DNA of 64,000 nucleotides from Lineus longissimus (taxonomy: Eukaryota > Nemertea > Pilidiophora > Heteronemertea > Lineidae): the NCBI RefSeq assembly GCF_910592395.1, contig NC_088310.1, forward strand, positions 5,091,501 to 5,155,500. The letters are read 5' to 3'. A program made the translations under genes and the position numbers. Shown here in pieces: positions 1-56,658 of the stretch (position 1 is the first letter of the stretch; each line of letters starts with the position of its first letter). Under the pieces are notes generated by a model, which saw only the letters and a list, made by a program, of their open reading frames with translations, was not told the origin of the DNA and ran no database searches.

Positions 1-2384
1 TGTGTCATACTCCAGAATGATATCCAGCGTTCATCGATGATGCTTTAGTTTCAAAACTCCAAACAAAAGTGGCGTTAGATACAGTTTTAGAGATGTGGTG
101 AACAACTGCAATGTGTATGGTACGTCGATTCGCAAGATAAAGCACAACATCTGGCATTGCAACCAATTTGCATGCGCCTCATCCAAAATGCATTTATCTC
201 TTTCAGGGCCTTCATCCAGTCACACCAACATGAGGGCCTATGCATTTGGGTCAGTAGGCCATCCCCTGGTTTATGGCTTATAAAAAGAAATTCAAACAGG
301 AAAAAATCTGGTAAATAAAAATGTTACTTCTCAAAGGACAAAGATTGCATACATGTAAGTCATGCGAGTCAAAACTATAGAAATATCAACATTGGTTTTT
401 AAATTTCCAGTGGTGAAAATCATGTTTCCTTCAAGTTCAAAGGTCAGGCCAGCCCCTGAAAATGAAAGTGAACATAGATTAATTGAAAATATTGAATCCA
501 AACTGCATCTCAACACTGTCTCATGACATCATACCGACCATGGTCGATGAGCCCCTCGGTTTATTTCGTAGATATACTTTTTAAAGTTTCTGAAAGTGTA
601 GGGAGACTATTCATTTTGATTTTGACTATTGTTATGCCAGCAGACCTGTCAAACGAATAATTTTCTTAACAGGGCCTTATGATTCATCTCATACATACAC
701 ACCTGGCTATCAAACGAGTTGAATTCTGTCATTATTTGCACATGACCATATTTATGTGGCTGGTAGAACTTTTAATGAGCCTATTTCACTCTTTCAGAAC
801 ACTAAATTAGTAGTTACCCGAAACAGAGGCTAGCATATCAGCTCTACTTTACACTGTATTTACAACATAAATTTGATATCAACTATCATCCAACCAATAG
901 TTTATAGTATAGCGGACCTCAGTTGATCTGTTTGACCAGCGCTACAATAAGTGTTATCACTGATGACACATAAAACAAGGGAGATCATTACTTTCAGCGG
1001 CACCTGTCATTGTGTCTGAAACAACACATTAGGTCATTTTGAACAGATGGAAGCGACCACTACTAGGTCTTGTTATCACTGCGAAGATACAGTACCAGGC
1101 TTTACAGCTATTGTGTTAAAATACTTATTTCATAGGCTGATGTTATGACTGGCTCTACTGGTATATGAAGGTCTATTTACATGTATTTTAAAGCATTTAC
1201 AACAAGGCCCTTCATTAGCATAACTTGTACAACAGTGAACGATGGAGAACCACACGGTAGGCCTATAGTGCTCTACAACTCTCCAGGCAAGATGCATCTT
1301 AAATGTGCTGCAATTTTCAGTCAACCTTGAGTCAATTCCCGATGGATTCTTTGCTCTAAGATGAATTACAGTGACTACTACTATAGTACTGGTCTCACAG
1401 TAGGCACAATGTAGACTTCATTACCAATGCACGAAAGAAACATTTTTCTGGGTCAGGTTGATTTAACATGAAAATAAGATATCATATCTAATTAGCAGTT
1501 AAAGTAAAATTAGAGTAGACACTGACCCAGATCTGGGCAAAAAGCCAACGTGAGTTTCAAAAAATAAACAGTGTCCAACAAGGAAGGTGAAACTTAAACC
1601 ACAGACTGTGGCTTCTTGGGATTTGAACTTGTAATTCTGCTATCTCAGGAAGAAAAACTTTGGGACCTACCACATAGCTTGGCAAGGCAGAACTCTAGAA
1701 CGAACATCTTGCATTGAGCAAAAATGTTCACATCCTGAACCTAATGGTCTACAGTGTGAACAACCCCCTTAAAAATGTATCCAGTATGCTAAGATGCAAA
1801 AGCATCAATCCCAGTCAATGGTCAAGATGGAACTTTCAGTACGATTTATGCTACATACATGTTTTATGCTACATACATGAATTTTTGGAAACACTTCTGT
1901 AGATTCCAAAAAATGTATGTCTTCCGTAGGCTTATACATTGTAATGTTTATAAATATGATGATCTCTGGTTCACAGCTGAAATTATTGTAGGCATACAGA
2001 CGCACATCACTGATGTCATTTGCACCTCGAGTGGAATATGCAGCGACAGCTGGGACATTCTACAATACTTGGATTGATCGAATGAAATAGAATCATTGTC
2101 GAATCAGATTCAGAATAATGTCGAATACAAATTTGCATTATCTTTTCTAACTTGTGGTTTATTTTTTAGTTTGCAAGGCAATGAATTCAAAATTAGATTG
2201 ACATTGTTGACAGAAATTGACAATTTCTAAAGAGCAAAAAGTGGAACTGGCAGTGACTGAATTCTTCAGTCTGGCCAAACTGACTTTCTTCTTAAGTTCT
2301 TGATGCTCTTTGGGTTGCATGATAGAGGTCAAATCAGATGGCCTTGCCATCTTCAAGTAAAGCTTTCATCACTTTATTTCTTAC
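1..2384 (-). other. EHD intron 1 (partial); no further exon seen
   Basis: This AT-rich stretch lies downstream of the EHD exon donor. Open frames on both strands are short (under 75 codons) and none resembles the conserved EHD continuation after RARLAK. It is most simply the first part of a long intron. Confidence 0.6.
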
Positions 2385-3302
2385 CTTGGCTAATCTTGCT
2401 CTCTTGATTAAATCATTTAGTTTCCTGAGAGCGGCATTCCGGGGCAGACTCTGGAGATCGCCAAATAGGTCTTTCTCCTCTAGTTCGAACAGCTTACGAT
2501 TTTCATCGTGGTGCAAGGCTTGATCCCAGAATGATCCGATGTAGACCCGTACAACTTCTGGCGTGTCGATAACTTTCCCAAGAGACCACATGAGAGCACC
2601 GTAGACTCGCATCAACTGCTGGTGATCAATGCCATCTGCCTTGTTCAAGATAATACGTATCTTATCATCATAATTTTTCACGGCTTCTATACACCAACGG
2701 AACTCGTCCGAAATGTCAAGCTTGTGCGCGTCAAATAAGAGTATGATTCTATCGACCCGTTCGGCAAACCATTCCAGGACACCCGTGAAATCGTACCCTC
2801 TGTTGACCCGTTGTTTCTCCCCCGATAACACGCCAGGAGTGTCAACGATTGAAATGCTTTCGAGAACTTTGTTATTTAGATGCGAACACTGAAAACGATT
2901 AAGGAAAGCATTTCCGAATTTCTCTAATGGTCTGAACTGCTTTTTAGGATCAACAACGAGTGCATTTCCTGGAATTATTCCGTCTTCGGTTTCAGTTTTC
3001 ATTATCACAATAAATCGATCCGTCGTTGGCTCTGGACCGATTCGAATACCTGGGAAATCTTGCTCTAGTAAGTACTTGATAAATGTGGTTTTACCCGTTG
3101 AGTACTGGCCTATCAACAATATCATGGGCTTGGCATCAAAATCAGGATCATCCAAAGCAGGGGAGTGAAAATCATGAAATTTGTAACTGTCTTCGAGAGG
3201 AAGTAGTTTGTGTCTGTACAGCCTTTTTAGACCATCTACAACACTGGCGTACACCTCTGGAACCTTTTTCCGGCTGTCATCCCCTCCCATCCACTTCAAC
3301 AT
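2385..3302 (-). CDS. EHD: EHD-family dynamin-like ATPase, first coding exon (gene continues off left edge)
   Basis: EHD proteins are dynamin-like ATPases that oligomerise on endosomal membranes and drive recycling and tubule scission. The exon encodes 306 residues that read as the EHD N-terminal helical segment and G domain: P-loop GQYSTGKT (residues 65-72), switch I EPTTD (91-95), DTPG (154-157), NKAD (220-223), and the conserved stretches HSPALDDPDFD, LFDAHKLDISDEF and SLPRNAALRKLNDLIKRA. The start is the ATG of MLKWMGG, matching the family N terminus. The open frame runs 16 codons further to a stop at 2334, but AAG|GTAAGA at 2385/2384 is a strong donor exactly where family similarity ends, so the extra codons are intron. 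Family members are about 530-550 aa, so the second helical part and the C-terminal EH domain are missing here. I found no further exon in 1-2330. Paralogue (EHD1/3/4) cannot be assigned; invertebrates usually have one. Confidence 0.93.
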
Positions 3303-3577
3303 CTTGAAGTTTTATTGTTTTTTGCTTATTTTACGGTAAAAAGCGGTGTAAATCGGCAGTTTTTCAGAGCAGTATATGTACGTGTGTATCTGCTCAGTGC
3401 ATTTGTAATGTGACTCACCCCACCGGAAGTCGGTACGTCCCACACCTACTACCCACGCGATTTGTTACATCCTTGATGTACACATTGAGGGTTGTCGGAG
3501 TTCTTCTATATAGTAACAACAGGTGACGCCACCATTAGTTCATGAGTTCCTGTACGCGGGAAATACGAATGCGCACG
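3303..3577 (-). promoter_or_regulatory. Presumed EHD 5' UTR and proximal promoter
   Basis: This is the interval between the EHD start codon and the foldback insertion. It is richer in CpG than the surroundings (for example ccggaagtcggtacg near 3423 and acccacgcgat near 3452), as expected of an invertebrate housekeeping promoter. No TATA box is convincing. The role is inferred from position. Confidence 0.4.
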
Positions 3578-3659
3578 CGTGGATATGGCAAGCCAAAGCG
3601 GAATTTATTCAAGACTTTAGAATTACTATTCAAGAAGTTAAATATAAGTTCAAGAAGGA

Positions 3660-4440: not shown

Positions 4441-4586
4441 TTGAACTTATATTTAACTTCTTGAATAGTAATTCTAAAGTCTTGAATAAATTCCGCTTTG
4501 GCTTGCCATACGTGGACTTGTTACTACTACATGCAATAGTTTTTTATAAAAGTGATGACCCCTGTAGGATTTGTGAAAGGGGTCCT

Positions 4587-9384: not shown

Positions 9385-12300
9385 TTAAATAATCTCCCAT
9401 TGCATGAGCGCAGTGTCCTTTCCGCCAGCCGACAACAATCGGCTATCATCGTACAGGAATTTAACGTTTGTCACATGACTACTGTGACCGCTGTAGATGT
9501 GTGCTGTAGTCTGAAAAATTGAACAAAAGTTAGTTTTTAGTAAAGCGCTTACAAGAACTGTATATGTTGGATTCATCAGATGCAGCTTGCCCAAAGCCTT
9601 CAAGAGTACCAGAATAGCTGACATTGGGCACCTAAATAGATATTATGATAAAGTCACATACCTTTGGTTGACAACATGGGTAGGAGAATAGGTTGACTTT
9701 GCCATAGTCATCGGCACTAGCTAGGACCTTCTGCTGATGGGACCTGGCACAGGCATTCACATCGGTACCATCAGCTCCCTCAGGCCAGATACCTGGAAAC
9801 AAAACCACGATACATTTTCAGACTGTAGTTTGATAGGTGGGTGCGGCAAACAATAGAAGGAGAATGATATTGTCATGATAAGGGTGTTGGTATCCCAATA
9901 GTCAGGAGGTTGTACGCTTTGCCACTTGGTAGTGCCACATCCATTTCACCTCAGTGTCCTTGAGTATTCAGACACCTGACACTCACTGCTTCACTCTACA
10001 AAGTAGTATGATTTGGAACCCGTATTAAATGAGAAAATGATAAGACATGAGCAAAAATGCCATCTAGGGCTGGTAGAAGCAATATTTTGAGTAATTTTGC
10101 AGACTGCACCATAAACCTGGAAATCATTCCGCTCGAAACAGCTCCAGTGAAAGCCCAGCTGACTTAATAGACTGACCTGCCACTGTGAATCCTAGCGTAC
10201 AGCTTTGTGTTTTCCATTTCACGTCTCTCATGTTGGAAGCAGATGGCACCTGGTGACAATTTGAGGATGACCCTGGAAGAAGACAAGCAGTACTTTTGTA
10301 CAAATAATTGATTAACTGGCATGAGTGCACTTCTGATTAGGCGCAGAAAGGCCTCAGGTCGTTTGTCTTAGCTCATGGACAGCCGGAGTGTAAGTCTTCT
10401 TAAGGCCCCGCAATTCAAGGCCAACCTGGCTACGTCTTCTGAAGTTTCCCAACTCTTAGAGAATAGACCTTCCACAGCACATGATATACGTCCTGGGGTT
10501 CCATCGACCCTGATCTTTCAAGCTCCTGGACACCATCATCTTGCCTCTCACACCACTGTTTAGTGGAAATGTGTCGAATTTCAGCTCATGAGTACAATTT
10601 TTCAAAATTCAACTAAAATCCTTTAGCACTTACAGTATAAGATTTCATAATCCCCTGAGTTTGACTGTATGAACTGACTGTCCTCTGACCAATCTAAGTG
10701 TGTAATGAAACTAGAATGGCCAGTGCATTTGCCGACTCGGCTGTACTTCCTGCCACCTTCTGTGGTCTGGTACACATAGATGCTGTTATCTCGTGATCCG
10801 ATCGCGATGAAACGACCATCTGAAAGTGAAAAAAAATCAATTTTGACTGATAAGAACAGGCACGTAGTAAAAAAGACACCAAAGAAGCACAAGATTAGAG
10901 ACGAAAATTGTTGAGAACAGAACAGTGCTCTGTAAAAATTGTAAGCTGTCCAGGATCATCCCACCAATGATAACGACAATTTCTAAATATGACACACAAT
11001 TGTCAAAAAATAGCTTACCAGGGGAGTATTCTAAACATTCAATCTGCTCATTGCCATCTGTATGGACAGCAATAATTTCTCTAGCAGTTGTGTCAATGAC
11101 CAGCCAACGACCTGTCTGGGTACCAATGGCTACAATGTCACCCTCTGGGTAGAAACATGCGGAATGTGCCATGTCCTGCAAGAGAAAATATTGAATTAAT
11201 TGAAAAAGGTTGAAATGGAATTTAGAGAGAACATTTTCTTTTTCTTCTTCTGCATTCGAAACTTTTGAGATGCATGCCAGACAGTCCATTTTCAGTAATA
11301 GCCCAAACGTTGCAATACATGTAGGCCCGGCATACACTGCTCGACTGCCACTCATCCATCCAACTGAATAAATCTGAATTTCTCTCCTCAAAACCAACAC
11401 ATTAAGTTTCGTTACAATAGAGTCTTACGTTTAATTCCTTTGACCAGACGACAGTATGAGTCAGTGCATCCCACAGGTAAACGTGGCGATCGTATGCACA
11501 TGAGAGGAACTGGTGCTGGTTGGGGTGGATAGCTAGACCCCACAGCTCATCTGTGTGACCCTGGAAAAACAGATTATATTTCGGTAAAGCTTTATAGGGT
11601 TTTTGGAACATAAATCAAGCAAGTTGGGGAGGAGGTTATCTGAAAACTTCCCAAAAGTTTGACTCCAACTCCAAAACTCCAATGAGTTTGTAGTTACACA
11701 GTGAATCTTCAGAATATCATATACCCGTTACACATGATACCCAATCTTACCTGCACAACAGGGCTGAATTCCAGATCTAGAGTTCCCTGCAAGATGCTAT
11801 TCTTCGTCGTCCCAGCCAGGATCATGTTGCCGCGCCCTTGAGTGAGTGTCCTCACAGCACCATACTGTTCAGCAAGCTGAAGGAAAAAAATACACCACAA
11901 TCATTAACAGAACCAAAATAATCTACAGTGCTTTCAATTAGACTTAAAACAAGGTTCTCTGCACCTGAGCTTAAGGAGCCACAAATATATGTGACCTACC
12001 AGCTAATTTACTGGTGGACTTCCGATCAAATCCTCAGCAATAAAACTAACAAAATCGGCCCCTTGGATTTAGGAGCCATCTCAGAAATCCAACACTTACA
12101 GTGGTTTCTTTTTCCATCCGGTTCCAGCTAGAGTCCCACTGGACGATCTTTCTATCCTTGCCACCTCCCGATAGCAAACTGCCGTCTTTCAATATCAACA
12201 TCGAGAAGATGCCACCATCATGGGCACCGTTCACGGCTGTGCCGATCTTATTGGTCCCTGAAATGAACAATAAATCAACTACATGTACCAGTATATAAAC

Positions 12301-13564
12301 AAGAGTAAACTTCCATCTTATTCACTGACGGAGAGTAACCAATAGAGGGCACAAGAAGTTCAACGCGATGGTGCCATCTTCCACTTCAGAATCTGCACCA
12401 CTGCCAAAGACAACACCAGATGCCAAAATTTTGTGCCTATTTGTTTTGGTGGATTATGAAATTTCTCATGAAACTGCTTACCTCTTGGCCAGACAAATAT
12501 GTTGCCATTGGAATCACCAGTTATCACATCACCATTCTCAGCAAACGTCAGACACAGCACATACTTGGGTTTGTCATATTTCTGGAGAGAAGAAACAGAC
12601 CTTATTATAGATTTGCACTGGCTCCGTAAGATACTATCGACAACACAGAGCCATGAGCCAAAGAGAGCAGTGAGGTTGCCATGGCCTCAAATTTGACCTC
12701 CAACCTCCTCCTTGCTCTTTCTTCCAACCTCAGGAACCCACATGCCCAGAAAAAACTCTGCTCACCTCATATACACCTTGTTTCTTGTTGATTGACCCAT
12801 TATCCAAGGTGAAGAAGGCAAGTTGACTTTTACCACACGTCACAATCATGTTCTTTTCAAATGGATGGAATTCTGCGGCTAATACTGGTTCTTGGGAGCA
12901 CTGGAATGATAGGTAAAGGTCAAGTCGTTTTGTAAGATTCTCAACTCTTTCTCTTTAAAGAGAGGTTTCAGTGTGTTTTGCATGAACAGCTCATTACACT
13001 TTAGACATGACTGAATTGAAATTAACACCACACTGTTGGATCTCTGTACTAAAATTGAGATGGTTGAGTGGAGCTCAAATTCTTCCTCAAAGTTATTTTC
13101 CAACTAATTCAATCTCAAGCTCAATCCTTACCTTGGTTTCTGTGACCTTTCTACCTTTGTCTCCATTTTGCCAGTCCCATATTGAAAGGATGTGGTCATT
13201 GCCCTCATCTACAGCACACAGGTACATACCACCATCCTGAGAGTGGAAAACAAACAAAATTACAACTGAGAAGGGGGTCAACACCAATTGTTGAATATCT
13301 GGAACATCTTTAATGAGAATTATCCAATGATCATGTGAATAGGTTGCAACAATTCTAAACAATTTGTGAATGTTTCCTTGCACATATGGACATGTGATGT
13401 CACCACTTGTCTAAAATGAATTAAGGTCACAACTAGACTTTCTTCAGAAGTTTAAAACTTACCGCTTTTGAGAATGAAAGACAGCAGACGGCCCTATCGA
13501 AATCTCCGAGGCCAATGATGTGCATGGTTGCCAGGCTGACTGAGTTCCATACTCGAACATGCGG
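9385..13564 (-). CDS. EML: EML exons encoding WD40 tandem propeller
   Basis: Twelve exons with consensus sites and consistent phases encode the WD repeats. Recognisable blocks include PHVRVWNSVSLATMHIIG, GGMYLCAVDEGNDHILS, AAEFHPFEKNMIVTCGKS, LTFAENGDVITGDSNGNI, AHDGGIFSMLILKDGSLL, GHTDELWGLAIHPNQHQ, GTQTGRWLVIDTTAREI, GHSSFITHLDWSEDSQF, SGDYEILYW and GHSSHVTNVKFL. The protein ends 13 residues after GGKD, without the long C-terminal tail of EML4, so it is closer to EML1/EML2. Confidence 0.93.
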
Positions 13565-40686: not shown

Positions 40687-43600
40687 ATGCTTGATATTTT
40701 ACAGGGTAGACCAAATATTCTGCCCAAAAAAACGAACAAATGTAGCAACAGCCAATATTTCATGTCGCCTGAAAATCGCCGAAGTACTAAGAAGTCTGGT
40801 GTGAAGAAGGAGCATACACCTCGCACAATGAAAAAAATGCAAAAGCAACACAGGGATAATGAAAGGTAGGTACACATTGATTCAAGAAACAGGTAAGTCA
40901 CCGCAACCAGCTTCTGTTTCTGCAAAAACTTACTATTTCAAAGAAACAAGTTTTCGGTTTTTGAGGAATTTTGGACTATTGAAGGTTTTGGATACACATT
41001 ATATTTAGTCAATTATAAGTTTAAAACAAGAATGTTTCAAACTGAACTTAAAGATATTGAGTCGAATCAACCAATCATTAAGAAATGGTCTTAATTGGTT
41101 GTCTTTTCAGGAATCGCCATCAAGGCATGAATGCTATCATCCACGATTTGTCACTGATGGTGCCTGGTCATGGACAATTTGGCAAGGAAACAAAGGTGTG
41201 TTTTGGCCAAAGGACTAAGAAATACGTTGTTATGAATATCAAACAAAAACCAATTGGTGACAAATGTCAACTTGGATCTTCATTGGCATTTCTGAATCGT
41301 TCGAACCATCTTCATCAAAATTAGCTAGGCATAAAATGTTCAAACTGTAGCGGAGTCAGTTTAATATTCAGGGTTGCAAAATCAACTCAATATTTTTACT
41401 CAATTGATTAGTTGTCTGCTGCAGCTATTTGTGCATGCTGTAGGACTCCCGCTTCTGTTTATAATTACGGATTAAAAGATCCATAACACCCAAATAAATG
41501 TATTGATTTTGTCTTCCAAGATCTTTATTAGCAGATGGTGACATCTCCTGGGACTTGAGATGAAACTGGTCTTAAGTTTCTCAGATAGGTCATTTGGAGA
41601 TATGATATAAAAATCTCTCATCTGCAAGCAGCTCTTTTGAAAGAAGTAACTGAAATGAACAAACATATTTTGTGTTTTCTAAGAAATTAGAGTTAGTAAA
41701 TTTGTATCCTTTTCAGATTCACACCCTGAAGAAGCTGATCTCCTACATCTGCCACCTTGAGGAGTATACTATGAAGTTGGTCACTGAAATGGGCCTGGAG
41801 GCAGATTTTCATGATTTGTTGCTCAAGCCTTATCTGACGGAGAATGATAGTTAGTACTCTGTATCAATTTCCATTCCAAGATACACTAGTTAGCTTTTAA
41901 AATGGGGTAGGATGGGAAAATGTTGTCTCCGAACCAAATTCAGTTCAACAAACCTTTTCAAATTCAATGTCCTTTCAGTAGAGAATAACAGATATGTCCC
42001 AGGAAGAAAGCGCCAAGCGGAAGACACCCTGTTCCGTGAAATTGAAAAATGCAGGAAGTTGTCGTCTCCAACCATCGATTCAACTACTATAGAGGTCCCA
42101 GTGGGACAGCTTGGTCAGGCGTTTATCCAACTCGAGAATGGGAAAATGGCTCCTATTGGTACAGTCCAACAGTCAAGGGATGGGAGTAACTATATCACAA
42201 TACCAGAGATTGTGACCACTTCAGCAGTAAGGCCGTTTTGTTTTTGTTTCTTGCTCTCACACATTGTACTTCAGGGAGGTGGATCTTCAAAAAGAAGGAT
42301 GTCCTTCAGATGAACTTCTTGTTCATTCGATGGACTGGAAAGAGTTTTAGTTCATGAAAATCCACACTGGTCCATCCAGAATTACAATCATGGGTTCTCT
42401 ACATCAGATATTTGCTCTTCCCAACCTATTCTCTGATACTTTTTAATTTTCCAGTTGTACCGAGGAGGAACCATCCTGATACCTTCAGTTGTAGATCTTG
42501 AGGAATTCCAAGCTGGTCACAAATATAAAGACCAAGAAACCATGTGTGTAGCTACAAAATCCTCAAATGATAAGATAAAACCCCAGACGCCCGCAGCATT
42601 TGGCAGTCCAGTTTTGATCTCGCCCTTTGGCTCACCACAAGGACCAAAGACACCTTTCCTGAGGAACACCGGAGATGCGACCCCACTTCTATCTCAGTCA
42701 AGCCTATCCGTCCTGAGCAGTCCCGTCTTGAAATCGCCGTACAGTGCTTTTTCCCACAATAGCGATTCTGGTACACCATCCAAGATGATTGACTCGACTA
42801 CCATGACGACTCTTGCATCCCAGTTGGAGCTATCTATGCAATTGCCGGATCAAGAGGAGGAAACGGAACAACCTACTCATCTTTCACCTACGAATTACCT
42901 CTCTGCGCTAAGCCTGATTAGAAACTCGCAACAAGACGTCGCATCCTACGCCGCAGAGTTCTCGGACGATTCCGTCCTCGATGATGATCCATTGGATGAA
43001 CCCGTCTTTTACGGATCTTACAAAAAGAAGAAACTGAAGCAAAAGAAGAAGAAGAAAGTGCATTCATGTCGGAAACCCGCTACTGTCAATCATCCGTTCA
43101 TGTTTTATGGCGTCGGAAAATACGTGAATGAGAATCGGAATAATGTGAGGAAGTCTAATAACAGTACCGCTGCAAGCTTGTTTTCAAAAGGTAGGTTCGA
43201 AGATGTCATCAAATCCCAAGAACAAATTTAGCAAACTGGACCTTGATTTTTACAATTTATTGAATTGAAATTAACTTTTTACACTTAATCCATAATTTCA
43301 GACATTGGTTCTGTCAATTCCTCCAAATCATCGTATGAATGGAAGTTCCATGACAACACTGCAGAGCTGATCCACAAAAGGTACAATAATAATCAAGCCG
43401 AATTTTTTCACCAGTGAACATGTATTAGGTACTTTTTCACTCATATTCTCCATCTTTTTAAATATTTTCAATTATGGCATGTATGGTATTGGTTATATTC
43501 CAGCAGTGCTGAAAGCGTAGCATCCTTGCAACCAACTAAGCTCGATCATAGAAAGACATCTTGGATGAATGGATTCATGATGTTTAGCAGGATGCATAGA

Positions 43601-44941
43601 AGAGACTTCATTGAGTAAGTTCCACTCAATAGATTCCTAAGGGGAAAGAGAGCTTCACTGTGCCTGTGGCACTTAGCAGAAAAGAAGAAGCTGGACTTAA
43701 ACTGTTTCAATCAATATCACTTTTTGACTCAGATCAGCAGATAGGTCTCCGTCAGCAGTCTAAAAGAATACAAATATACATGTACTCCTAATCTGCACAA
43801 CCTGGCTCGCTCGGCATCCTGCCAATGTTAAAAGCTTGTGGGCTCTGTCACACGGCACTCTGCTCTTCCAATCTATTAATCATCTCTAATATCCTTTGTT
43901 TCAGTGTTAACCCTGGTACCCCAACTTCACAGATCAGCAAGCTGCTTGGCCAGACTTGGAGGGGGATGAACACTGAGCAACAGCAACCTTACAAGTAAGT
44001 TTCCATCGGTTTAGAAAAATCACCTGGTTATATTGTTAGCCTGCAATTACACTAGTGCTTGAGCATCAGTCGACCAATTAAATTGAAGGCCATTTCAAGG
44101 GAACAGTAGATTGTGATTTGTTAAGTAACATCAGAAATTGCTGCTTGAATTCTCAGTCAAATGACTGTCTTAAAAATTGCCCCAGAAGGTTAAAAGTTAA
44201 CGATATTGACTGAGACAAACCAGTAAAGTTAATGAGTTTACATGTATTTCAATCCTGAAATAGTTGTTACAGTGGCACTAGAGCAAAAATCATCATGGTG
44301 TTTTCAGACTGAAGGCGAAGCTATACGCAAATGACTTGGAGAGAATGTATGACGTCTCCCCAGAGATTCCCTTAACAGTCAAGGATGAAGACAAAACTTC
44401 CAGCACCCTGTTTGAGCGGAAGATGCATGGCAATGGCAAAACTGTCCCTGCACTGTTAAGTATGCAAAGTGAAAATATTGAATCATGTCGTGATGGATCA
44501 GTTTCTATCAAAAGAGAAATTGTACTCGATGAGGAGAGGAATGGCCCAGAGTCTGACGAGACCAACACTGCCTCCGAATGTGAATTTGCGACTGAATCAA
44601 ATCAGGATGCAGTGACTGGGTCAAACGATTGCAGCGGTATTCCCAACTCATGCAAAAATGATGAAATTGTCTTCATGGTAAATGGGAACCGCGAGTTTGA
44701 TTATAGAGTGCGGATAAAGATTGAGATGTCAGATGAGGAAGAGGCCAATGTTCCAAGCTTTCCTTTCACTGATTTTGACTCGGAAGCGGTGGTTCCAAAA
44801 AGTATTGAAACAGTGAAGTTAACCGTTCCTTCAGATTCACCTATCGACCGCAGCGTTCCTGATCAACCAGAACCGGTGACAGTAGGACCGTCTGAAGCTC
44901 ACGATGATGGACAGCGGGTTCCTAACGCACCATGTAGGTAG
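40687..44941 (+). CDS. MEIOSIN: bHLH plus HMG-box transcription factor, MEIOSIN (BHMG1)-like
   Basis: Vertebrate MEIOSIN partners STRA8 to switch on meiotic prophase genes in germ cells and combines a bHLH with an HMG box. Exons: 40687-40865, 41111-41195, 41717-41849, 41979-42226, 42455-43190, 43302-43380, 43504-43614, 43905-43994, 44308-44941. All phases agree, giving 764 aa from the ATG at 40687, which has an in-frame TGA 48 bp upstream. The bHLH is at about 50-110: basic HRDNERNRHQGMN, helix 1 AIIHDLSLMVP, helix 2 IHTLKKLISYICHLEEY. A polylysine nuclear-localisation candidate (KKKKLKQKKKKK) lies mid-protein. The HMG box is at about 505-568 (WMNGFMMFSRMHRRDF, ISKLLGQTWRGMNTEQ, PYKLKAKLYAND). 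An acidic tail follows. If 40705 is a real acceptor, the first exon would instead start upstream. Orthology is inferred from architecture. Confidence 0.8.
40705..41849 (+). CDS. MEIOSIN: bHLH-encoding exons of the MEIOSIN-like gene
   Basis: The bHLH is split over three exons. Basic-region residues before AG|GTAGGT at 40865 include His55 and Glu59 (protein numbering from 40687), the canonical E-box contact pair. The arginine at canonical position 12 is kept (Arg62), while position 13 is His63. The loop (PGHGQFGKETK) spans the exon junction at 41195/41717, and helix 2 is entirely in the third exon. Confidence 0.82.
42455..43190 (+). CDS. MEIOSIN: Large central exon of the MEIOSIN-like gene (disordered, Ser/Pro-rich, NLS)
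   Basis: This exon gives 245 residues, low in hydrophobics, with repeated S-P and T-P sites (SPFGSPQGPKTPFL, LSSPVLKSPYSAF), an acidic stretch (DDSVLDDDPLDEPVF) and a run KKKKLKQKKKKKVHS. A FMFYGVGKYVNENRNN block follows. It is most likely an intrinsically disordered, phosphorylatable activation or linker region. The donor is AAAAG|GTAGGT. Confidence 0.8.
43504..44400 (+). CDS. MEIOSIN: HMG-box-encoding exons of the MEIOSIN-like gene
   Basis: Three exons encode the HMG box: WMNGFMMFSRMHRRDFID, then VNPGTPTSQISKLLGQTW and RGMNTEQQQPYK, then LKAKLYANDLERMY. The conserved Met-Asn near the start, the central Gly-x-x-Trp and the PY motif before helix 3 are all present. The acceptor at 43503 is a cagcag pair, so NAGNAG splicing could drop one serine. 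Confidence 0.85.
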
Positions 44942-45640
44942 CAGTCAACTTCGAACCGAGATGGAGAACCGATGGAAATCTTGTCATATGGTTTAGCGCT
45001 GAACGACGCTGAAGAGTGAGAGAGTTGATCTCGTTGATAATGCAAATCCTATTGAAAATAAGCGATTCTACATGTACAGTATATAGATAAGCATGTTCCC
45101 TAATATGAATTAAAGGGCTAAATGATTAAGACAGCACAACCAATCATTGAGAAGAAATCTTGAGAAGAAATCATGAGAAGAAAAATCCTTAGATAATTAT
45201 CTGCTACCCAGACAGACATCATGTTTTCAACAAAAAACTAAAATCAGGATTTTTTAGGGTTGTCAACAACAGTTGACAACCATTACCTTTTCAAGCGAAC
45301 TGGTGCATTATCAAGCACTTCATCATGCTTGGTGGTAAGGTCACAGATCAGAATCAAGAATCAAGATGTAGAAATTGTTAACTATTGTTAGGGATTCAAG
45401 CCTAACTAGATAATATTTTCATTAATTAGAGGTGTTAAAAACACATTTGAAATACATGTAGTGCGAGTGTCCCAGGTGGATCTTGAAGAAGTGACAAAAA
45501 TTGCCACACAATCTGTTTTTATGTCTCCTATGTTTTGTTATGAAGTAATTACATTTACAGTTATAACTTGTTACATTTTATATCATGTTTATATTTTCTA
45601 TCCAGCATTTTTGAAATAAAATCATTTGAAGTCAACATCT
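44942..45640 (+). other. 3' UTR and poly(A) signal of the MEIOSIN-like gene
   Basis: Downstream of the TAG at 44939-44941 the sequence is AT-rich and non-coding. An AATAAA at 45615-45620 is the likely poly(A) signal. Three tandem copies of ttgagaagaaatc-like sequence lie at 45147-45187. Confidence 0.65.
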
Positions 45641-46307: not shown

Positions 46308-49300
46308 TCACTTGCCCTTCTTGAACTTTGGTCCCTGAAAGAGCAAGTTGATATTAGATACAATGGCAGTCACCTGTGGTCACAATCTCAATTTCAACAT
46401 CTGCAACTTCGAGCAGACTGAAACAGCACATACTTGATACTTAGCGTATTGAGTTGCATGAACACCCATTGGTTTCATCTTTGATGAGGATATCATTGTA
46501 AGGGAGTCAATCTCCTCTCCTTGCTGTGCTAGTTTATCATTCATACTGGCGATGTGTTCACTCATTAGAGTCTAAGACTTGGGTGCTCCAACACATCAAT
46601 ACTCGTGGCCCTGCCCGCCCCACCGAGTCCACCTACCTTTGCATTGAGCTGCATCTTTAGGGAATCAATTTCCTCTCCCTGCTGTGCTAGTTTATCATTC
46701 ATACTGGCGATGTGTTCACTCATTAGACTGAGGTGGCTCTCATAACTCTTTGTTGTGGTCTGCAGCTCATCCTATCAAAGAAATCGATATTCTATTCACT
46801 TTGATTTTCTCCATTGTTTTGCTACCGACTATTGTCTCAAATTGTATACCAAAAGTGTACCAATGAGCAGCCAACTCTTCTGGGTTTGTCAGCACAACTT
46901 CTCTGCCTCATAGTGAAAAAGACATTTCATCCAAGGTCTCAAACAGCACAGTGAGTTGAACCCATCACTCTCTGGTCATCAGTCTAGTAATTTACCTTGA
47001 GTTGCGCATTTAGTTGATTGGCTGTGTCGACCTCTTCTTGTAAGCGTGACTTCACCTTCTCAGCAATGCTCAACCTTTTATGCAGCGCTCGGCACTAAAA
47101 TGAGAATAGCCAATCTTTATTCATAAATAACACCAAGACCTCATATTTCCTGGTCTGAATGAATGCACAAATATCATCTGGTGGAAAACTTTTCGTATAA
47201 AATAAGAAAATAATCTTCGAAGGAGTTTTTTTTCCAGTGTATATGTACAAGGTACATGTATGTACAAGTTTCTTTGAGGGTATGGTATAACGTCTACAAT
47301 ATCCTTTAATCCGACAATATCCATTTGCAGAGTCAATATATCTTCCTCCCTCTATTTTCATTCCTATTAATTCATGAAACGAGGGCAGACAATATGAGCT
47401 TATTTGCATACCACAGTAAACAATCCCCCACGTTCTGCACTCACCCTCCTGTGTCACACATACTTTTAATATGCACTTATTATAACTTCAGGTGAGAACA
47501 AGTCAATAGGGTCAGTCAGGTCGGACCATGGTGCCGGTTAAGTGCAGCCGGCATCATTCTCAACCAGGTCAAATTGGCCAAGTCCAATAGGTAATTGGGT
47601 AGACAGCCAGTGCAAGTACATTATGCAGCTAATTACCAAGGGGGAACCCTGAAGGAAATATTACATAATGGGGTGAAGTAGTAGGAACTTGTGGGGCCTT
47701 GACTTAGATTGGTCTATTGTGAGGGTAAATAAGCTACTCAAATTAGGTCAACTGGACTAGTCCATGTCTGAGGGTTAGAGCCATATATCACCATCAGACA
47801 CTGTTTATGAATGGGTTTATTGGGAGTACCCTCAACATTCTTGTTGTTTTTGTTCTGTTTAGCATTGGTTCTAAAACTTCATGAGAAAAATCTTCATATT
47901 AGAGGATATCATATTCCATTACGCATTACGATCAGAGATGATAACACAATGGAACTATTGAATACTTGATATCTCTATATCATGTATCATGAAAAGGCAA
48001 AGACTACTAGGTTGGTTTGATAGGTCAAAATATGTAAGGATGGTCTAGATTCTCAACTCTTCAAGTTGGATAGGGTCAGAATATAGAGAATTTGGACACC
48101 TGGAGCTGAACTGGACTAGTTCGAACACAACTTTAGCCATTGGGGCAAGAAGGGGGACACAGGCAGTGACATACATTACAGTCAGTGACGAAAATGGCCC
48201 CAAATCTCCCCAAACATGGTTCCAAATGATAGTTAGATGAGTGTTGTGTACAATTTAGTCTCTAACCTTGACCCTGACCCTCTCAAGGGTAAATATTTTC
48301 CCTGGCTTAATCCTTAAAGTATGTCAGTACCAGCAACAATTGCTACATGTATGTTGTAATATTGAATTCTTTTAATATTAGTAATTAGATTTACAGTTAT
48401 GTATGTGAAAGTCCTTTAGTCTTGTGGTATTACCCAATACAGAACCAATAATATTGGTAAACATGATCTAACATTCATGAGATATTACAATGTCAAGGGT
48501 CAAGGCCAAATTATGGAATTGGAAACTATGCCAAGCTGCCCTATTTCCAAGTACCCAGCACTGATAGATGTAATATCAAGGTTAGGATTATTCAAATATT
48601 GGTAATCTGATGTCACAGTTGGGATAACTGAAATCCAGAGCAAACTGGTGCAGCAAACACCAAAGTCTACAAACTTTTCATTCCAAAAGACACATCATCA
48701 TATTTGTAGGTCACAGTCACAACTTTTTTTTTGGACTCATGGCCAGAACACCTTGTGATCATAAGGTGAACTTCATTCAGTAAATATTTTTCAATCATCA
48801 AATATGAACGAAATGGAGGCATCATACTGGGTGTCCCAAATTTTTCATCCTCACAAATTATCTGGTCTGTGGACTTTAAAGCATCACTTTGGTTTTCACC
48901 AGCAATTCGGCCCGGAGACAAGGACTTTTTATCAACGCGAGCCATAAAACTAAGAACTACCAAACTTGCAATAGACTGAACGATTAAACGAACATAACCA
49001 AAAAACTTTTGAGAGAACATGACAGACGTGACGATGCCTACACATCTTTACAAGAGTGAGGGGAGGGGCAATACCTTGCCTCTGTCCATTAGGAAGATGT
49101 TGGGAAAACAACCCACAAATCGACATGCCAGACAGAACATCAACATGTGTGCAGCTGCCGAAAAAGCTCCATTTTGGAAGGGGGGAGGTGCCAAATCAAG
49201 AAATGCACACCACCACCAGGAGACAAAAATCAAACTTACCTCTGCGTAGAAGTTGACAGCCTTACTATCTGACATCTGCAACTGAGTTGACAATTCTGCT

Positions 49301-52300
49301 ACTCGGTTTGTAAAATGCGATTTTATCAACTGTTCCCTCGTGTCTTTCTCATCATCCGTCACGTTGACGGTTTCTAGTCTTCCAACCTGGAAAAGCAAGT
49401 TATTCAAATTATTTTACAAAATCATCAACTTTTTTAGATACAGAAATTCAATTATCTCCTGAGCAACTGCTCATAAACCTCCACAATGTTTTATTCTTGA
49501 AACTTACCAGACTCTCATCCACCAGTTTAGCTTGTTTATGTTGGGTTCCATGGCCAGTTTTAGCGGCCTGCACCTCAGCAGCACCAGCTTCAAGATTGTC
49601 TTCTATAGAACCTGTCAATCGTGCTTGCTGTAACTTGACCTGTCGTTCTAAATCTGCTATCCGCTGAAAGAAAGCGAGGACAAAAATTATAAACAAGGAC
49701 TCTCACAATGATCAGCCAGTACTATATTATTTTGCATGTAAAGTTGATTTATCAATTCGAAAGCGTTCTTGTGCTCAGTTAATTTGAACATGTCACAAGA
49801 TGACTGACAGACTGGAACCACTCTCAATAGCATTATCCTCACTCTCATTCCTAGCTGGGCGATAGGCTTCCGTGAACAGAAGACAGTACAATATTAACCT
49901 TTTGTTCCTTTTCATATTTGATCTGCAACAGTTGAGCCTCGAGCATCCAGTGTTCTTTGTCCTGTTCTAACTTGTTCACTTTTTCATGGAATTCTGTCAC
50001 CTGTTGGGCAAGACTATCACGACTCTCTGTCGAACTCAACAACGTCCGTCGGTTTTGTACTGCGACTTTATATGGCACAGATTCTGGGCACGGCTGAAGA
50101 GTAAGAAAACATATCATAGAACAGTCACTTTGATACACAGTCCACCAAGATAGGCGGTCAAATTTTAGACGGCAATTCCTGAGATTGGGAGACATTTGAA
50201 ATATGGGTTCAAGCACTGCCCTGCCCTTAAATTCGCAGAGTGGGGGAATGGGCTGCCACTGGGCAAACAAGCATGGCAGAACCGCGGAAATCAAAGTAAG
50301 AAACTAAGTGATGCTCTTCGGCTCAATTAGAATTATTCAAGTATGATTTTCTAACTTCTGCTTGGCTACTTACTCTATTTATGAGCTGCATATAACTTGA
50401 CGCATGCTGCCTAAACCCAGCCACAGCAGGACATGACTTAGGACCCTCGTCAGATTCATTGGTCGATATACTACTTCCTCTTGTCCTGTAACCAGCTGTC
50501 TGTCCGAAGAACTCAAAATTACCAGCGATAAATGTGGACAGCTGAAATGTTAGATTCAAGAAGTGAGATTTTGGTACCTCAGTGACAAAATTGTACGGTA
50601 ATGTATTCGTTTGTTTGTAAACAAACTCATTCCTTGTACCATGTCTACTGGGACAGAGTCTACAATTACATAATGTAAATATTTTCTCACCTTCCCTGTG
50701 GTTGTGACTAGAGAGATCAGAGAGGAGACAACACATTCATCAGTCGTCTTCAATTTCTGTGTAGCTGTAGGCAACTGATGCTCCAGGGAGACCTTGGAAT
50801 TATAATGCTTTGAAACCTCTGAAATCGGAATGTGACAATTATAAAAGGCATATTAGGATTTGATAAGTTACATAGGTAAGTTACATAAGTTAATATTAAG
50901 GCTCTCTTTTTTTAATTTCATTCCAACTTACCTTTTACCGCCTCATGGAAATCTGCAGCAGCTTCAGACAAAAGGCTAAACATGCGCATTTGGTTTGCTC
51001 GCAGGTGATCACAGGACTTGCTGCCTGAAAATAGATAGGAATGATATTTCACAAGTGTCATGAGAGTTGGAAGAAATTTTGCCTAGACTTATGGGGTCCG
51101 GGTGCAATCTTTTCTGGGAGAGGGCAAGTCACAAAGCAGCTACGATTTGAATTGAACACCATCTCCTCCAACATAGCACTTTGATATCCGTGGATGTTCT
51201 TCAGTGGCCAAGATAACAATATTTGCACCACAAGAAAATTATGGAGTAACTTAATCTAAACTAAAGTGTGGATTATCCTGCAAGAATCTAGCTAAACAAA
51301 ACTGCTGTTTACATATTTGATACAAAGGAAGGAAAGTAGAGAGAGTAATGTCATGTCAACTTACTCTGAGCTGCCAGCAATGCAACGTACGTTTCAACCT
51401 TCTCCAGAGCGGCCACGAATTTCTTGAGAGCAGCATGCAGCTCCATGTTCTTGTCCTTGAGAGTTGACGTACATGATGACACCAGACATTCCTCTTCAAG
51501 ACTGAAATTTGGACGAAATACAATCTAATGAGATCCCAGAAATATTCAGATGGACACTCTGACCACCATGCCTAATATTTGACATGCAAAGAAACATTCT
51601 GTTCTGCTCTGGATTCTGGGCCTACTTGATGTTGAAAAACATGCATGATGAAGGTCATGAGAAGCAGTGGCAGGTCAATAGGCCTACTTCTAGGCCTGAG
51701 AATAAATATCTGAGTTTGCTATAGGTACTATGCAAGGTACCAGGTAATATTACATTCATGCCTAGTTGCTATGTAGCTTGGGTGTCCTGTCATGGCAATT
51801 CGTGGCTCTAGGTCATCAGTTCAGTCATACACACAATGCATCACAAAGTTTTGTTCCTAGTTGGGATGAACTAGACATGGAAGTGATTGGTACAGGTTTA
51901 ACGAATGGCCCAAAGGAAAAAGAGAATGCCACTAGAGTTCAGTGAAAGCAATCAATCATCTCATACAATTATAACCAACTAATGGGTTTGTCGCAGGCTG
52001 GGATATGAGATTTGGATAATTATTACCCTCAATTTATAGTTTGGAATTAGACCTACCTCAGTAACTGGTAGGGATGGAGTTTGTTGACATAAGTCACATA
52101 TTTATGGAACCGATGAGCAAATTCTTGTAAACCAGTGGCAGTTTCCTAAAGAAAAAAGATAAAAAATAACTTAGGAGCAACACAGCAATGAAAAGGATAA
52201 TGTCTTTCCTAGGACATCAATGTTCATTGTGCTCAAAAAAGTAACACAAGTCCTGAATCAAAATCAAAGTTTGGAATCCACTTACTAGAGTTGTCAGTGC

Positions 52301-55121
52301 GTCGTCATTTAGAGTCTCGTGGAATGATTTGAAGGCGGAATCAACAGCACGTAGACAGGAGGCATTTTCATGTAGTATCTGACAATACTGAAATGAAAAA
52401 AAATGATAAGACTAGAACCAAAATCACTTCGGACTCTTCACTTATCCACATCGACAGCGGCATATATATTCACAGTATTCTTACTCAAGAAAAAACAAGT
52501 GTCTTTTATGTCATGGCCACGCAGAGAGCATTTTACACTCGTCAGGTCAAACTCTGCTGCCCTGTTAAAAACTAGCCTGCTATCAAAGTATTTTATGTCA
52601 CATTTTTTTTCGGCTTTACAACATACACAGAGTTACCAAGGAGAATTTGAATTCCACTTGACACAGACTACTGAGAAATCATTTGCACATAAAAACACAT
52701 GCAGTATTTGCTGGTCTTAGTGCTTGTGTACAAACTTACAATTTTATTAACCGCACTGAGAGGTTCGGAAATGCCATCTGAGGGGTAAATGCTGGATCTT
52801 TGTTCGGTGTAAGTGTGGAAGTTTGAGAGGCCTTGGGTCAACTCTCGTATATGGGTCGCTGCCTGACCAATCAGCTCCTTGGCATGTAGCTGATGCTTTC
52901 TGTCATGGGTGGGGATGTTTAGCGCATTCAAATCACGATCCACTGAAAAGAACAGGATATACTTGAAATAATGTACGCCACATTACTTTTGCTATGACAT
53001 GTCTGTAGACACACAAGTACTCTTGTATTTTCTCATGCCACTACATTTGGGCCCCCATTCAGGTGATCGACCAAGTGACTCAGCCTCTGACAAGAGGAGT
53101 CCACCAAAACTAGACTGGAGCACTATTAAAAGATCAGAAAATTTTTCTTCTGATCATTTTTGAATTCAGCTTGAAGAACTTACATGTATCATTGAAAGGT
53201 AACTTGTCCCTGATGATCTTGGAGGCTGTTTGGAGCCTGCCACTGAGGTCTCGCTGAATGGTACACAGTTGTTCCTCACTGAAATAAACAATCCAACAGT
53301 TACGTTTTCAATGCTACACAAACTCAAAGCACCATTTAAATACCATGTTTAGGTAATTCACACTGACCGACTGAAGTGAACTTTACTGGCAGTGGACTTA
53401 CGCATTTTCAGCCCGGAGTTTGGCAGCCTTGACTTCCTTATCTTGCGTCTGCAACCTCACCTAAATGAAAATGGAACAGAAAGTCAGAAGTTTTGCATAC
53501 CGAGTATCTAAATGCACCACATAGCTATTCAATCTTCGACAGCAAACTTCAAAACCCTGATTTTAGTCAACTGCCTTACCTCGAGCATAGCTTTATCTTC
53601 CTGCAGCTTGTCCACCAAGGCCTTGTTTTTCTGTGTGGTGGTATCAAGTATCCGCTGATGCTGACTAGCCTCGCGTTCCAGCACGTCAAGTTTATCGCGG
53701 AGATCCATCACAGCCTGGCGATGCTCTTGGTCAGATTCAAACACCTGAAATACAAAATTTTACACATCGATCTTCAAAAGATTGGCCCTTGAATCCTAAG
53801 CAATCAAAATACCATAAAGAGTAAAACTTTCAGACCCCTTTATTTTTGGATTTTTAAACAAAATAAAAAAAACTAAAATTTTCACGACTTTTTTGGCAGA
53901 CTAAGAAATTTCTTTTCAAAAGGCATCAAGAATACTGCCAACATGATTTGCTTTATTTTGAATTACCTGTTTGTGGAGCCGGGCATTTTCCTCGATCTTG
54001 CTCTGTAATTCTTCCCCAATGACACTACTCGTAGAAGGGTAGTTAGTGGGCGGTGGGTCAGAATTCTTGTACTGAAGAAGGTAAATTTAAGACCTTCTCA
54101 TTGAAACATCAGGATTGTTATTGGCGGTCATCATGAAAATGGAATCGAGTTGGAAGGCTGGGGCCAACACTTCTCACATCTTTCAGCATCACACCACTTT
54201 TGGTGTGGAAATGAAGCCGTTGACTTTCTTTCTCCATTAACTTGACAATAGTGGGTGATGTCAGGAGTGCAGAAAACGTCTCCAAAACACACAATAACAC
54301 AGTTGCAACCTTTTTTTACTTTCGCTCTAAGATAGTTTAAGTAGAGTAATGTGGTTTCTACTGCAGCACCCAGTGGCTCAGACTTACGCCGGTCACAAGC
54401 AACAAACCTTATTTTTCTTTCCCTTTGCCTCCGTCTCATCAAGCTCTTCCTGGAGAACAACTACCCGCTTTGACAGCTGCTGATTCCTGAACGAGAGACT
54501 ATCAATCTCCTGTTCATATTTCCTTATAGTCTGGTCTTTCTGTTTGATACCATCCTGCAATGAACAGAAATGTGGTCTCGAGATATGGGCATAAAAATTT
54601 AATGTTTTCAATGGTCAATGTAAAAAAGTATGTATAGGCAGAGAGAATCCTTCAACTTGCTTAGAGAATCAGGCACAAAGCTGGAAGAGGAGGCATTTCA
54701 CTGCCAGTAATCTTTTACCTTCAGTTCCTCGGCCTTTGTCTGCTCATCAATGACAGCCTTCTTCAACACTGGTAACTGAGAACGCAACTGAAAATAGACA
54801 ATTGATATGATGATGATCTGATTTATCATGGTTTTCAAGGCTCACTGACACTGGCACTATTCAGTATTCTTGGAAATCAGAACTGCCACTATACTACCTG
54901 TGATACTAGTATATTGTATGTGTAATTGTAAAGCCTTGGCTAAGTTATTGAACTGTTGAATAAACATTGCAAGGACTCCATAAAAATTTGGAGAGTGAAA
55001 TGTCAGATCAGATGTCATCATGATCTGGTCATTCTCAGATTCTGGGCACCACTTTTCTTCTGTTTATTACCTTTGAATACTCAGCAGCAAGCTTTTGGTA
55101 TTTGCCCTGCAAGTCTGCCAT
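46308..55121 (-). CDS. PPP1R21: PPP1R21 (KLRAQ motif protein, early-endosome coiled-coil protein)
   Basis: PPP1R21 is a coiled-coil protein of early endosomes, linked to endosomal sorting and named as a PP1 regulatory subunit. Exons in transcript order: 55121-55071, 54787-54719, 54554-54408, 54071-53967, 53744-53580, 53460-53402, 53278-53184, 52942-52740, 52387-52286, 52145-52057, 51501-51365, 51024-50932, 50818-50691, 50541-50374, 50093-49899, 49663-49508, 49386-49240, 47094-46996, 46771-46637, optional 46571-46434, 46334-46308. All join in frame: 789 aa without the optional exon, close to the ~780 aa of human, or 835 aa with it. Hallmarks are MADLQGKYQKLAAEYSK, LRSQLPVLKKAVIDEQ, SLSFRNQQLSKRVVVLQ, NFHTYTEQR, NRRTLLSSTESRDSLAQQ and DKEHWMLEAQL, with a basic GPKFKKGK end. 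Two donors are weak (GTTAAT after 49899, GTTTGT after 54408) but fixed by phase and homology. Confidence 0.94.
46434..46571 (-). CDS. PPP1R21: PPP1R21 duplicated C-terminal exon B (extra copy)
   Basis: This 46-codon exon is also phase 0 (AAGTCTTAG| acceptor, CAA|GTATGT donor). Its first part, LMSEHIASMNDKLAQQ then GEEIDSL, is identical in protein to exon A, and then it diverges (TMISSSKMKPMGVHATQY). Only a 65-bp intron separates A and B. Over about 66 bp the copies differ at three positions, all silent third-base changes. B can be added after A or replace its end; both keep frame with the last exon. Confidence 0.65.
46637..46771 (-). CDS. PPP1R21: PPP1R21 C-terminal coiled-coil exon A
   Basis: This exon encodes DELQTTTKSYESHLS, LMSEHIASMNDKLAQQ, GEEIDSLKM and QLNAK in 45 codons, phase 0 at both ends. 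It matches the conserved PPP1R21 C-terminal coil directly and is the copy expected in every transcript. Confidence 0.88.
47095..49239 (-). other. PPP1R21 intron with an internal open reading frame
   Basis: This 2.1-kb intron is the largest in the gene. It holds the 117-codon frame at 48667-49020 described separately. No repeat family is recognised. Confidence 0.5.
48667..49020 (-). CDS. Unidentified 117-codon ORF nested in a PPP1R21 intron
   Basis: It runs from ATG to TAG on the host strand. The N terminus is a hydrophobic helix after an aromatic/basic start (MFSQKFFGYVRLIVQS then IASLVVLSFMA), which could be a mitochondrial signal or membrane anchor. Next come KKSLSPGRIAGENQSD, CEDEKFGTPSMMPPFRS and a charged C terminus, KKKVVTVTYKYDDVSF. 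Codon use looks ordinary and the start region has several CpGs. I recognise no family. It could be a nested intronless gene, a retrocopy or chance. Confidence 0.3.
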   Translation of the reverse strand: MFSQKFFGYVRLIVQSIASLVVLSFMARVDKKSLSPGRIAGENQSDALKSTDQIICEDEKFGTPSMMPPFRSYLMIEKYLLNEVHLMITRCSGHESKKKVVTVTYKYDDVSFGMKSL

Positions 55122-55469: not shown

Positions 55470-56658
55470 ATGATGGCTTCACTTCACTTTTCCCAACCTG
55501 CTTTTAAAAACATTTACAACAAATCAAAGTATTTTGGGCTTCTTTCCAAATCCAGTTCGCGATTCAAGGTCTTCCCGTTGAACAACAACGTGCATTCTAG
55601 CATGATACATTTCACTGGATTGTCACGATCTGCGAGTCGTCTATTGACTACGAGAACTATACTTCATCATGGTCCAGCAAGCTCAACGATTTCAGGGAAC
55701 AGTGTCGGGCAGCATCCTATGAGATCGAGAGTTGCAGTGCAGTTGCGGGCATCAATCTTTGGTGGCCAGAATGTGGAGAAAAATGTAGTGCCGATTTTGA
55801 ATGGATGCTTCAGAAATACTTTTCAGCATAAACACTCATTCTCGACGTCCTGTGCAACGCTAGCAACAAGAAAGGCCAAGAAACGAAGGCAGGAATTGGA
55901 AGTGTTGCCCTTTGAAGTGGACGTAAATAACGTCACTCAAGATATCCCAGTCTACACCAATGATGGTCAGAATCGGTTCTTCCTGCTGGTTAGCTTTTTT
56001 GGAGTTATTCAGTTTGGATTCTGGTCATATGTTGCCCACTTTGCCTATACAACATTGAGAGATGCTCCGGTGAAAGAAGAGCAAGATGAGGAGACTCTTC
56101 CATTCTGGCGGAAAGTCAATCTTGGGGGAAACAAGTACAGATTTGGTACTGCTTTGCTGTCCATTACAGTTGGTAAGATGTCATGGCTAAATCTCAAAAT
56201 GAAGATGGACAGCTAAATGAAGAGATTTTTATTGTGTGCCAAATCCTAATCAGTTTATTTGGATTTGTGGTACGGTACGGTACGATACGGTACGGTACAT
56301 TCAGCATCAGTTTGTCTTCTTTTTACTTCATCAATTCTTATTTTGTGTATTTCTTTTCTTTTCAGGATATGTGTTGCTGTACGCCTCCATTTTCTATCCG
56401 ATGAGGGCAGTTAAGCGCCTTACTCTCATGCGAGGAGGAAGAACGGCAAAAGTCACGACATACGCTCCATTTGGAGCATACAGAAGCTTCACAGCAAGAG
56501 TTGAGGACATCCAGAGTATGCAATCGCGGGCCGAAATGAAACAACATATTTCTTTAAAAGTAAAAAACCGCCGCATGTTTTACCTCCTGGACAGCAATGG
56601 AAAATTTCTAAATACTCAAATATTTGACTTTATTGTGGGGCTGAAGAGACGGTGGTAG
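55470..56658 (+). CDS. TMEM223: TMEM223, mitochondrial inner-membrane protein
   Basis: TMEM223 is a two-pass mitochondrial inner-membrane protein implicated in cytochrome c oxidase (COX1) biogenesis. Exons 55470-56172 and 56366-56658 join in phase 1 across GTTG|GTAAGA and TTTTCAG|GA, giving 331 aa. Family features are QDIPVYTNDGQNRFF, a first membrane segment at about 170-193 (LLVSFFGVIQFGFWSYVA), KYRFGTALLSI, a second segment at about 224-246 (GYVLLYASIFYP), then KVTTYAPFGAYRSFTARV, LKVKNRRMFYLLDSNGKF and NTQIFDFIVG. The first ~145 residues are basic and Ser-rich without acidic clusters, as for a mitochondrial presequence, and are longer than in human (about 200 aa in all). ATGATG offers two adjacent starts. 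Confidence 0.92.
56269..56298 (+). repeat. Pentanucleotide microsatellite in TMEM223 intron
   Basis: ggtac-type units (ggtacggtacggtacgatac) repeat about six times with one substitution inside the 193-bp TMEM223 intron. Confidence 0.8.

Follow-up and report, generated by a model that had tools for sequence, protein, structure and literature searches.

Does the switch that starts meiosis in vertebrates have a counterpart in an invertebrate? The question is raised by a gene in a 64,000-nucleotide stretch of DNA (here called the window) from the nemertean Lineus longissimus (RefSeq assembly GCF_910592395.1, contig NC_088310.1, positions 5,091,501 to 5,155,500 of the forward strand). The gene lies on the plus strand at positions 40687-44941 of the window and encodes a protein with a bHLH domain near one end and an HMG box toward the other. 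The same two domains are found in MEIOSIN (PMC9604137), which was formerly named Bhmg1 (PMC11273298). The decision to enter meiosis is thought to be less conserved than meiosis itself (PMC6392498), and in the literature searched the accounts of the STRA8-MEIOSIN pair concern mammals and those of meiosin concern zebrafish. We conclude that the window gene is most likely a lophotrochozoan orthologue of MEIOSIN/BHMG1, a reading based on architecture, database names and linkage.

The gene is made up of nine exons, all with GT-AG borders, which splice into a single open frame of 764 amino acids (Table 1). Two acceptors are each matched by an equally good alternative (exons 4 and 7); either alternative costs the protein one residue, and the frame stays open in all four combinations. 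To ask whether the gene model exceeds chance, we ran a hold-out profile, made from 32 homologues with the window protein excluded, against the 3459 six-frame open reading frames (ORFs) of at least 12 amino acids in the window. Eight of these ORFs scored at E ≤ 5. They correspond to exons 1 to 5 and 7 to 9, all on the plus strand and collinear. The E values of six exon ORFs ranged from 1.5e-20 to 0.0048, while those of exons 5 and 9, which are mostly linker and tail, were 0.13 and 0.43. Taken alone, exon 6 had no match to the profile at E ≤ 5 among the window ORFs. The spliced protein scored 302.6 bits, with the alignment beginning at profile position 84. Furthermore, among 200 simulated 6-kb sequences, none contained a plus-strand ORF of 264 amino acids or more, the length reached in the frame of exon 5. 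An earlier note, made from the letters of this DNA alone, had proposed an intact nine-exon gene over this span. Its coordinates were right: the GT-AG exons form a single 764-codon frame that is open throughout and ends at 44941, and the profile match is collinear on one strand.

The same note had read an N-terminal bHLH and a C-terminal HMG box, and both score above the curated Pfam cut-offs. Two introns interrupt the bHLH and two interrupt the HMG box. Using position numbers set by alignments to Myc and NeuroD1, we found that H5, E9, R10, R12, and H13 of the basic region do not vary between the window protein and the 28 other rows in the comparison. We take H5, E9, R10, and R12 to be DNA contact residues. 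Because the basic region keeps them, DNA binding is plausible, with the contacts to an E-box half-site apparently conserved and a His replacing the Arg of Myc. The bHLH is nearest to NeuroD1 (E = 1.8e-4) and weakly resembles Myc. Among solved structures, the best match of the HMG box is SOX5 when the family profile is the query (E = 4.5e-13) and HBP1 when the query is the window protein by itself (E = 5.9e-8). It also has the MN-FM motif of sequence-specific HMG boxes, as SOX and HBP1 factors do; boxes of this class recognise particular sequences, in contrast to those that bend DNA indiscriminately. In contrast to these factors, the window protein and 22 of 24 scanned relatives carry a bHLH, which SOX and HBP1 proteins are not known to have. 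Identity as a SOX gene was therefore rejected because of the bHLH.

Relatives of the window protein were identified with two protein searches. A plain search of 8000 candidates yielded four matches, from the brachiopod Lingula anatina, the annelid Owenia fusiformis, the chiton Liolophura sinensis, and the scallop Pecten maximus. A focused search, which used words from the consensus bHLH and HMG box, retained 31 of 53 candidates at E ≤ 10. Thirty of these have named sources: bivalves, gastropods, cephalopods, a chiton, Lingula, and the annelid Lamellibrachia. Including Owenia, there were 32 homologues in total, and the 31 that are named are all molluscan, brachiopod, or annelid. When 24 relatives were scanned for domains (E ≤ 0.05), the HMG box was detected in all of them and the HLH in 22. 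Since these 22 carry both in one protein, the two domains belong to one conserved gene. In a tree of 33 rows, constructed from the bHLH, SSPT, and HMG columns, the window gene joined Lingula (support 95/97), and both were flagged as long branches; taken by itself, this grouping hints at a brachiopod or a near relative as the source without proving it. A profile search from a five-row alignment failed to recover even the rows it was built from and is uninformative. The relatives are mostly entered in databases as "uncharacterized" or "hypothetical" proteins. Several bear the UniRef name "Sex-determining region Y protein," and the name of an Argonauta relative points to MEIOSIN/BHMG1.

Vertebrate MEIOSIN (also BHMG1 or Gm4969) resembles the window protein in combining a bHLH and an HMG box in the same order within one protein. 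The neighbourhoods show a partial parallel: an EML gene lies near the window gene and near human BHMG1, while PPP1R21 and TMEM223 map elsewhere in human. Among the scanned ORFs, the order in the window is EHD (-), EML (-), the window gene (+), PPP1R21 (-), and a TMEM70/186/223-family gene (+), so that EML is the nearest gene identified to the left. Human BHMG1 sits between FBXO46 and SIX5 at 19q13.32 (PMC10449981, table). Human EML2 is in the same stretch, among the genes around QPCTL, a list that also includes LOC388553 (PMC5897035, table). We treat the linkage of EML to BHMG1 as support rather than proof because the chance of one such link was put at 1-3%, a rough estimate from gene counts. 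LOC388553 is presumably the locus number of BHMG1, and we take DMPK to be another neighbour at the human locus. Human EHD2 likewise maps to 19q13.3, whereas 2p carries EHD3, EML4, and PPP1R21, and 11q12-13 carries EHD1, EML3, and TMEM223. These positions are as expected if one ancestral segment had been copied in early vertebrates; a literature search aimed at such a vertebrate paralogon turned up only an unrelated paper.

Expression evidence comes solely from a species other than that of the window. In the Yesso scallop, a gene named BHMG1 is a core gene of a male-gonad module and has a male-over-female bias (PMC6708199), a gonadal expression that adds to the likeness with MEIOSIN. We assume that this gene is the orthologue of the Pecten relative (P0004). 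These results bear on several points of the earlier note. The invertebrate origin that it proposed is borne out, and its concern that the bHLH and HMG exons might belong to two genes fails on the single proteins found in other species. Its other concern, a better match to an unrelated family, was partly addressed: neither Pfam nor either of the two protein searches revealed a different bHLH or HMG family that matches the protein along its whole length. The domain pairing is the one seen in MEIOSIN, as the note had said, but it is less isolated than was thought, with relatives already in databases. Finally, the MEIOSIN-like identity gains from architecture, database names, and linkage, while the phrase "this meiotic switch" describes something that we infer.

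Several observations weigh against the identification and the role proposed below. No vertebrate MEIOSIN was among the four plain-search or 31 focused-search matches. Neither search returned a vertebrate, arthropod, or other-phylum protein, an absence that proves little given that both need shared 5-residue words. A provisional human STRA8 sequence, when compared with 999 of its own shuffles, ranked 8/1000 for the bHLH and 10/1000 for the HMG box (E = 3.8 and 6.5), which is not significant. The 5' end of the gene is unsettled. Specifically, the ATG at 40687 is a provisional start because most relatives are longer before the bHLH and no upstream exon was found: the start of the bHLH could be placed in 30 relatives, of which 26 exceed the window protein by 21-107 residues ahead of it and 4 have fewer, and neither an N-terminal profile nor inspection by eye found an upstream coding exon. 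The supported EML pieces are 28 kb from the window gene with no gene identified between them, and vertebrates have several EML genes. In human, EML2 is not an immediate neighbour of BHMG1. As for the scallop, the BHMG1 label is an NCBI name, the protein is not among our 32 homologues, and the gene is not named in the paper's text among the hubs of a 49-gene male network (PMC6708199).

Despite descent from a common ancestor with MEIOSIN, it is possible that the gene has another or a wider job, such as later spermatogenesis or sex differentiation, and that meiotic entry is a vertebrate specialization. The male-over-female bias in the scallop gonad would fit any spermatogenic role (PMC6708199). 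The linkers diverge strongly across species (mean column identity of 21%, 24 rows), and retinoic acid, the mammalian trigger of MEIOSIN, need not apply. However, mouse Meiosin marks preleptotene spermatocytes (PMC11059408) and zebrafish meiosin is switched on before meiosis (PMC12289312), so that a shared ancestral role in entry is the simpler reading. We view a different job as unlikely, though it deserves serious consideration. A bHLH and an HMG box could also have been fused independently in Lophotrochozoa, arriving at the MEIOSIN architecture by convergence. Neither protein search reached a vertebrate sequence, and a SOX/HBP1-like HMG box could have been freshly joined to a NeuroD1-like, weakly Myc-like bHLH. 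This scenario is improbable in our judgment: the domain order is that of MEIOSIN and that predicted for STRA8 (PMC9604137, PMC6392498), and the EML linkage and the names that annotators gave to two relatives also argue for descent.

The partner of MEIOSIN was itself a candidate, given that vertebrate STRA8 has an HLH followed by a predicted HMG box, as the window protein does (PMC6392498), and that the provisional STRA8 sequence shows a weak, non-significant resemblance. Yet the basic region of STRA8 is without the E-box determinants (PMC7810945), whereas the window protein and 28 other rows keep H5, E9, R10, and R12. Vertebrate STRA8 homologues also retain an LXCXE motif for binding RB (PMC10600341), which is absent from the window protein and scattered in 6 of the 33 rows. 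With intact basic-region contacts, no LXCXE, and no significant match to the provisional STRA8 sequence, this identity was rejected, and we regard it as very improbable. It is harder still to believe that two neighbouring genes, or a decayed copy, have been read as one gene. Exons 5 and 9 match weakly alone, exon 6 is unmatched, and the 5' end is unsettled, but the open nine-exon frame, the canonical borders, the collinear profile match, and the occurrence of the two domains together in one protein in other species all speak for one intact gene.

Returning to the window gene as MEIOSIN, we consider it likely that this orthologue is a nuclear two-domain transcription factor that turns on the meiotic programme of germ cells. 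The protein would enter the nucleus and dimerise through its HLH. One end would read DNA by means of the intact basic region and the other by means of the SOX-like, sequence-specific HMG box, the two being joined by a flexible linker. Its use in germ cells would be to turn on the meiotic programme, probably with no obligatory STRA8 of the mammalian kind. A role in the germline is a fairly probable expectation; action at meiotic entry itself is finely balanced, leaning slightly toward doubt. In the mouse, MEIOSIN is reported to act with STRA8 at CNCCTCAG promoters (PMC6392498, PMC9604137). In zebrafish, late germline progenitors express meiosin ahead of meiosis (PMC12289312), and no stra8 is reported to have been found in the zebrafish genome (PMC6365411). 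MEIOSIN can thus exist without STRA8, and by analogy a partner-independent or other-partner mode in invertebrates would be reasonable. An invertebrate meiotic switch is plausible as a reading of the gene. More tentatively, control of meiotic entry by MEIOSIN may date back to ancient bilaterians, with the protein working by itself or alongside a different HLH partner until vertebrates added STRA8 and retinoic-acid control. The invertebrate version, with both DNA-reading domains intact, would then be the ancestral switch, and meiotic entry in bilaterians would have a common transcriptional origin.

In the literature searched, no invertebrate gene treated as MEIOSIN was found; most subscription papers and bioRxiv were outside the scope, and such an account may exist. 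The sole invertebrate gene of the kind that is named there is scallop BHMG1, which is not called MEIOSIN, in a paper whose main text contains the word "meiosis" 0 times (PMC6708199). A Schistosoma paper in the same literature cites just the mammalian genes. The relatives are thus present in databases and are not recognised in that literature as invertebrate MEIOSIN, and the window gene is a new lophotrochozoan member of a known group. A bHLH-HMG gene found across molluscs, a brachiopod, and annelids offers a possible switch to study in animals with readily sampled gonads. Its conservation in lophotrochozoans opens the question of whether MEIOSIN predates STRA8, and the meiotic switch may be far older than vertebrates.

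Table 1. Features of the window, in window coordinates; E values of exons are those of the exon ORFs against the hold-out profile.
Feature	Position	Strand	Remarks
Exon 1	40687..40865	+	Ends within basic region of bHLH; 5' end provisional; ORF 40639-40866, E 4.2e-10
Exon 2	41111..41195	+	Remaining basic region, helix 1, loop; E 7e-8
Exon 3	41717..41849	+	bHLH helix 2 plus short tail; E 1.3e-4
Exon 4	41979..42226	+	Acceptor at 41979 or 41982; E 0.0048
Exon 5	42455..43190	+	Long Ser/Pro/Thr-rich linker; E 0.13 alone
Exon 6	43302..43380	+	Contains WKFH motif; unmatched alone
Exon 7	43504..43614	+	HMG box start; acceptor at 43504 or 43507; E 1.5e-20
Exon 8	43905..43994	+	HMG box middle; E 4.4e-14
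Exon 9	44308..44941	+	HMG box end, C-terminal tail, stop codon TAG; E 0.43 alone
bHLH domain, residues 54-103	40846..41761	+	Pfam PF00010, E 2.4e-7, 30.9 bits (cut-off 20.7); exons 1-3
HMG box, residues 508-561	43565..44329	+	Pfam PF00505, E 3.4e-10, 40.6 bits (cut-off 25.4); exons 7-9
SSPTIDSTT motif	42062..42088	+	SSPT in 25/33 rows, window protein included
WKFH motif, exon 6	43340-43351	+	12/33 rows, window protein included
AATAAA, possible polyadenylation signal of window gene	45615..45620	+	Consensus match only
EHD-family ATPase gene (part)	2337..3311	-	Pfam EHD_N E 5.2e-17, Dynamin_N E 1.9e-17
EML (echinoderm microtubule-associated protein-like) gene, part	10626..12686	-	Best Pfam matches Beta-prop_EML / Beta-prop_EML_2, three ORFs
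PPP1R21 gene (pieces), right neighbour	46568..54614	-	Pfam KLRAQ, PPP1R21_helical or PPP1R21_C on 6/10 ORFs scanned
TMEM70/TMEM186/TMEM223-family gene	55470..56655	+	Pfam PF06979, E 9.9e-13 and 6.4e-27 (two ORFs)

AlphaFold2 modelled the Lingula homologue, a protein of 762 amino acids, with a mean predicted local distance difference test (pLDDT) score of 48.3, and 582 of the 762 residues fall below 50. Order in the model is confined to the two domains. The bHLH is modelled as two helices (152-183 and 196-221) followed by two short helices up to residue 242, and its HMG box as three helices (658-676, 682-695, and 698-720). The linker between the domains has low pLDDT and is predicted to be disordered. 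In a Foldseek search with this model, ranks 1-43 among the best 50 of 65 matches were all HMG boxes; none of those 50 was a bHLH structure or reached E ≤ 0.001.

Some smaller features of the gene and its relatives were also recorded. An LxCxE-like pentapeptide (LLCDE, LMCDE, or LLCPE) occurs near the C-terminus of bivalve proteins from Mytilus (P0008, P0024, and P0025) and Saccostrea (P0011). It could be due to chance, with 27 of the 33 rows lacking the motif, the window protein included. Upstream of the gene, "GLPFRDVYSF" in the ORF at 36897-37124 recalls an N-terminal PF-motif of the relatives and was judged a chance resemblance. An acceptor-like AG lies at 40703-40704, near the proposed start, and a second polyadenylation-like hexamer, ATTAAA, is found at 45109.

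The three EML ORFs had E values of 4e-14, 2.2e-23, and 2.8e-9, each under the curated cut-off for the full domain. By eye, a coiled-coil ORF at 26406-27413 may be the N-terminus of the EML gene. Within about 500 bp of the window gene, a minus-strand ORF at 40094-40261 with no Pfam family has an ATG at 40234 (MSNPTDITTAMEPG...) and an acceptor-like CTACACAG ahead of it. It may represent a 5' exon that is spliced into a gene running leftward, perhaps EML, in which case the two genes would form a head-to-head pair and may share a promoter. To the right, a PPP1R21 ORF (55038-55214, -) and the TMEM70/223-family gene (55470, +) stand head-to-head a few hundred bases apart; this ORF probably encodes the N-terminus of PPP1R21, and Pfam gave no PPP1R21 match there. 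At the left end of the window, an ORF at 4912-5436 (-) resembles, by eye, the C-terminal portion of a reverse-transcriptase protein from a retrotransposon. Near it lies a 274-nt inverted repeat (3584-3857 and 4237-4510), with arms that are 98% complementary and spaced 379 nt apart, apparently made of 21-bp tandem units and thus a palindromic minisatellite.

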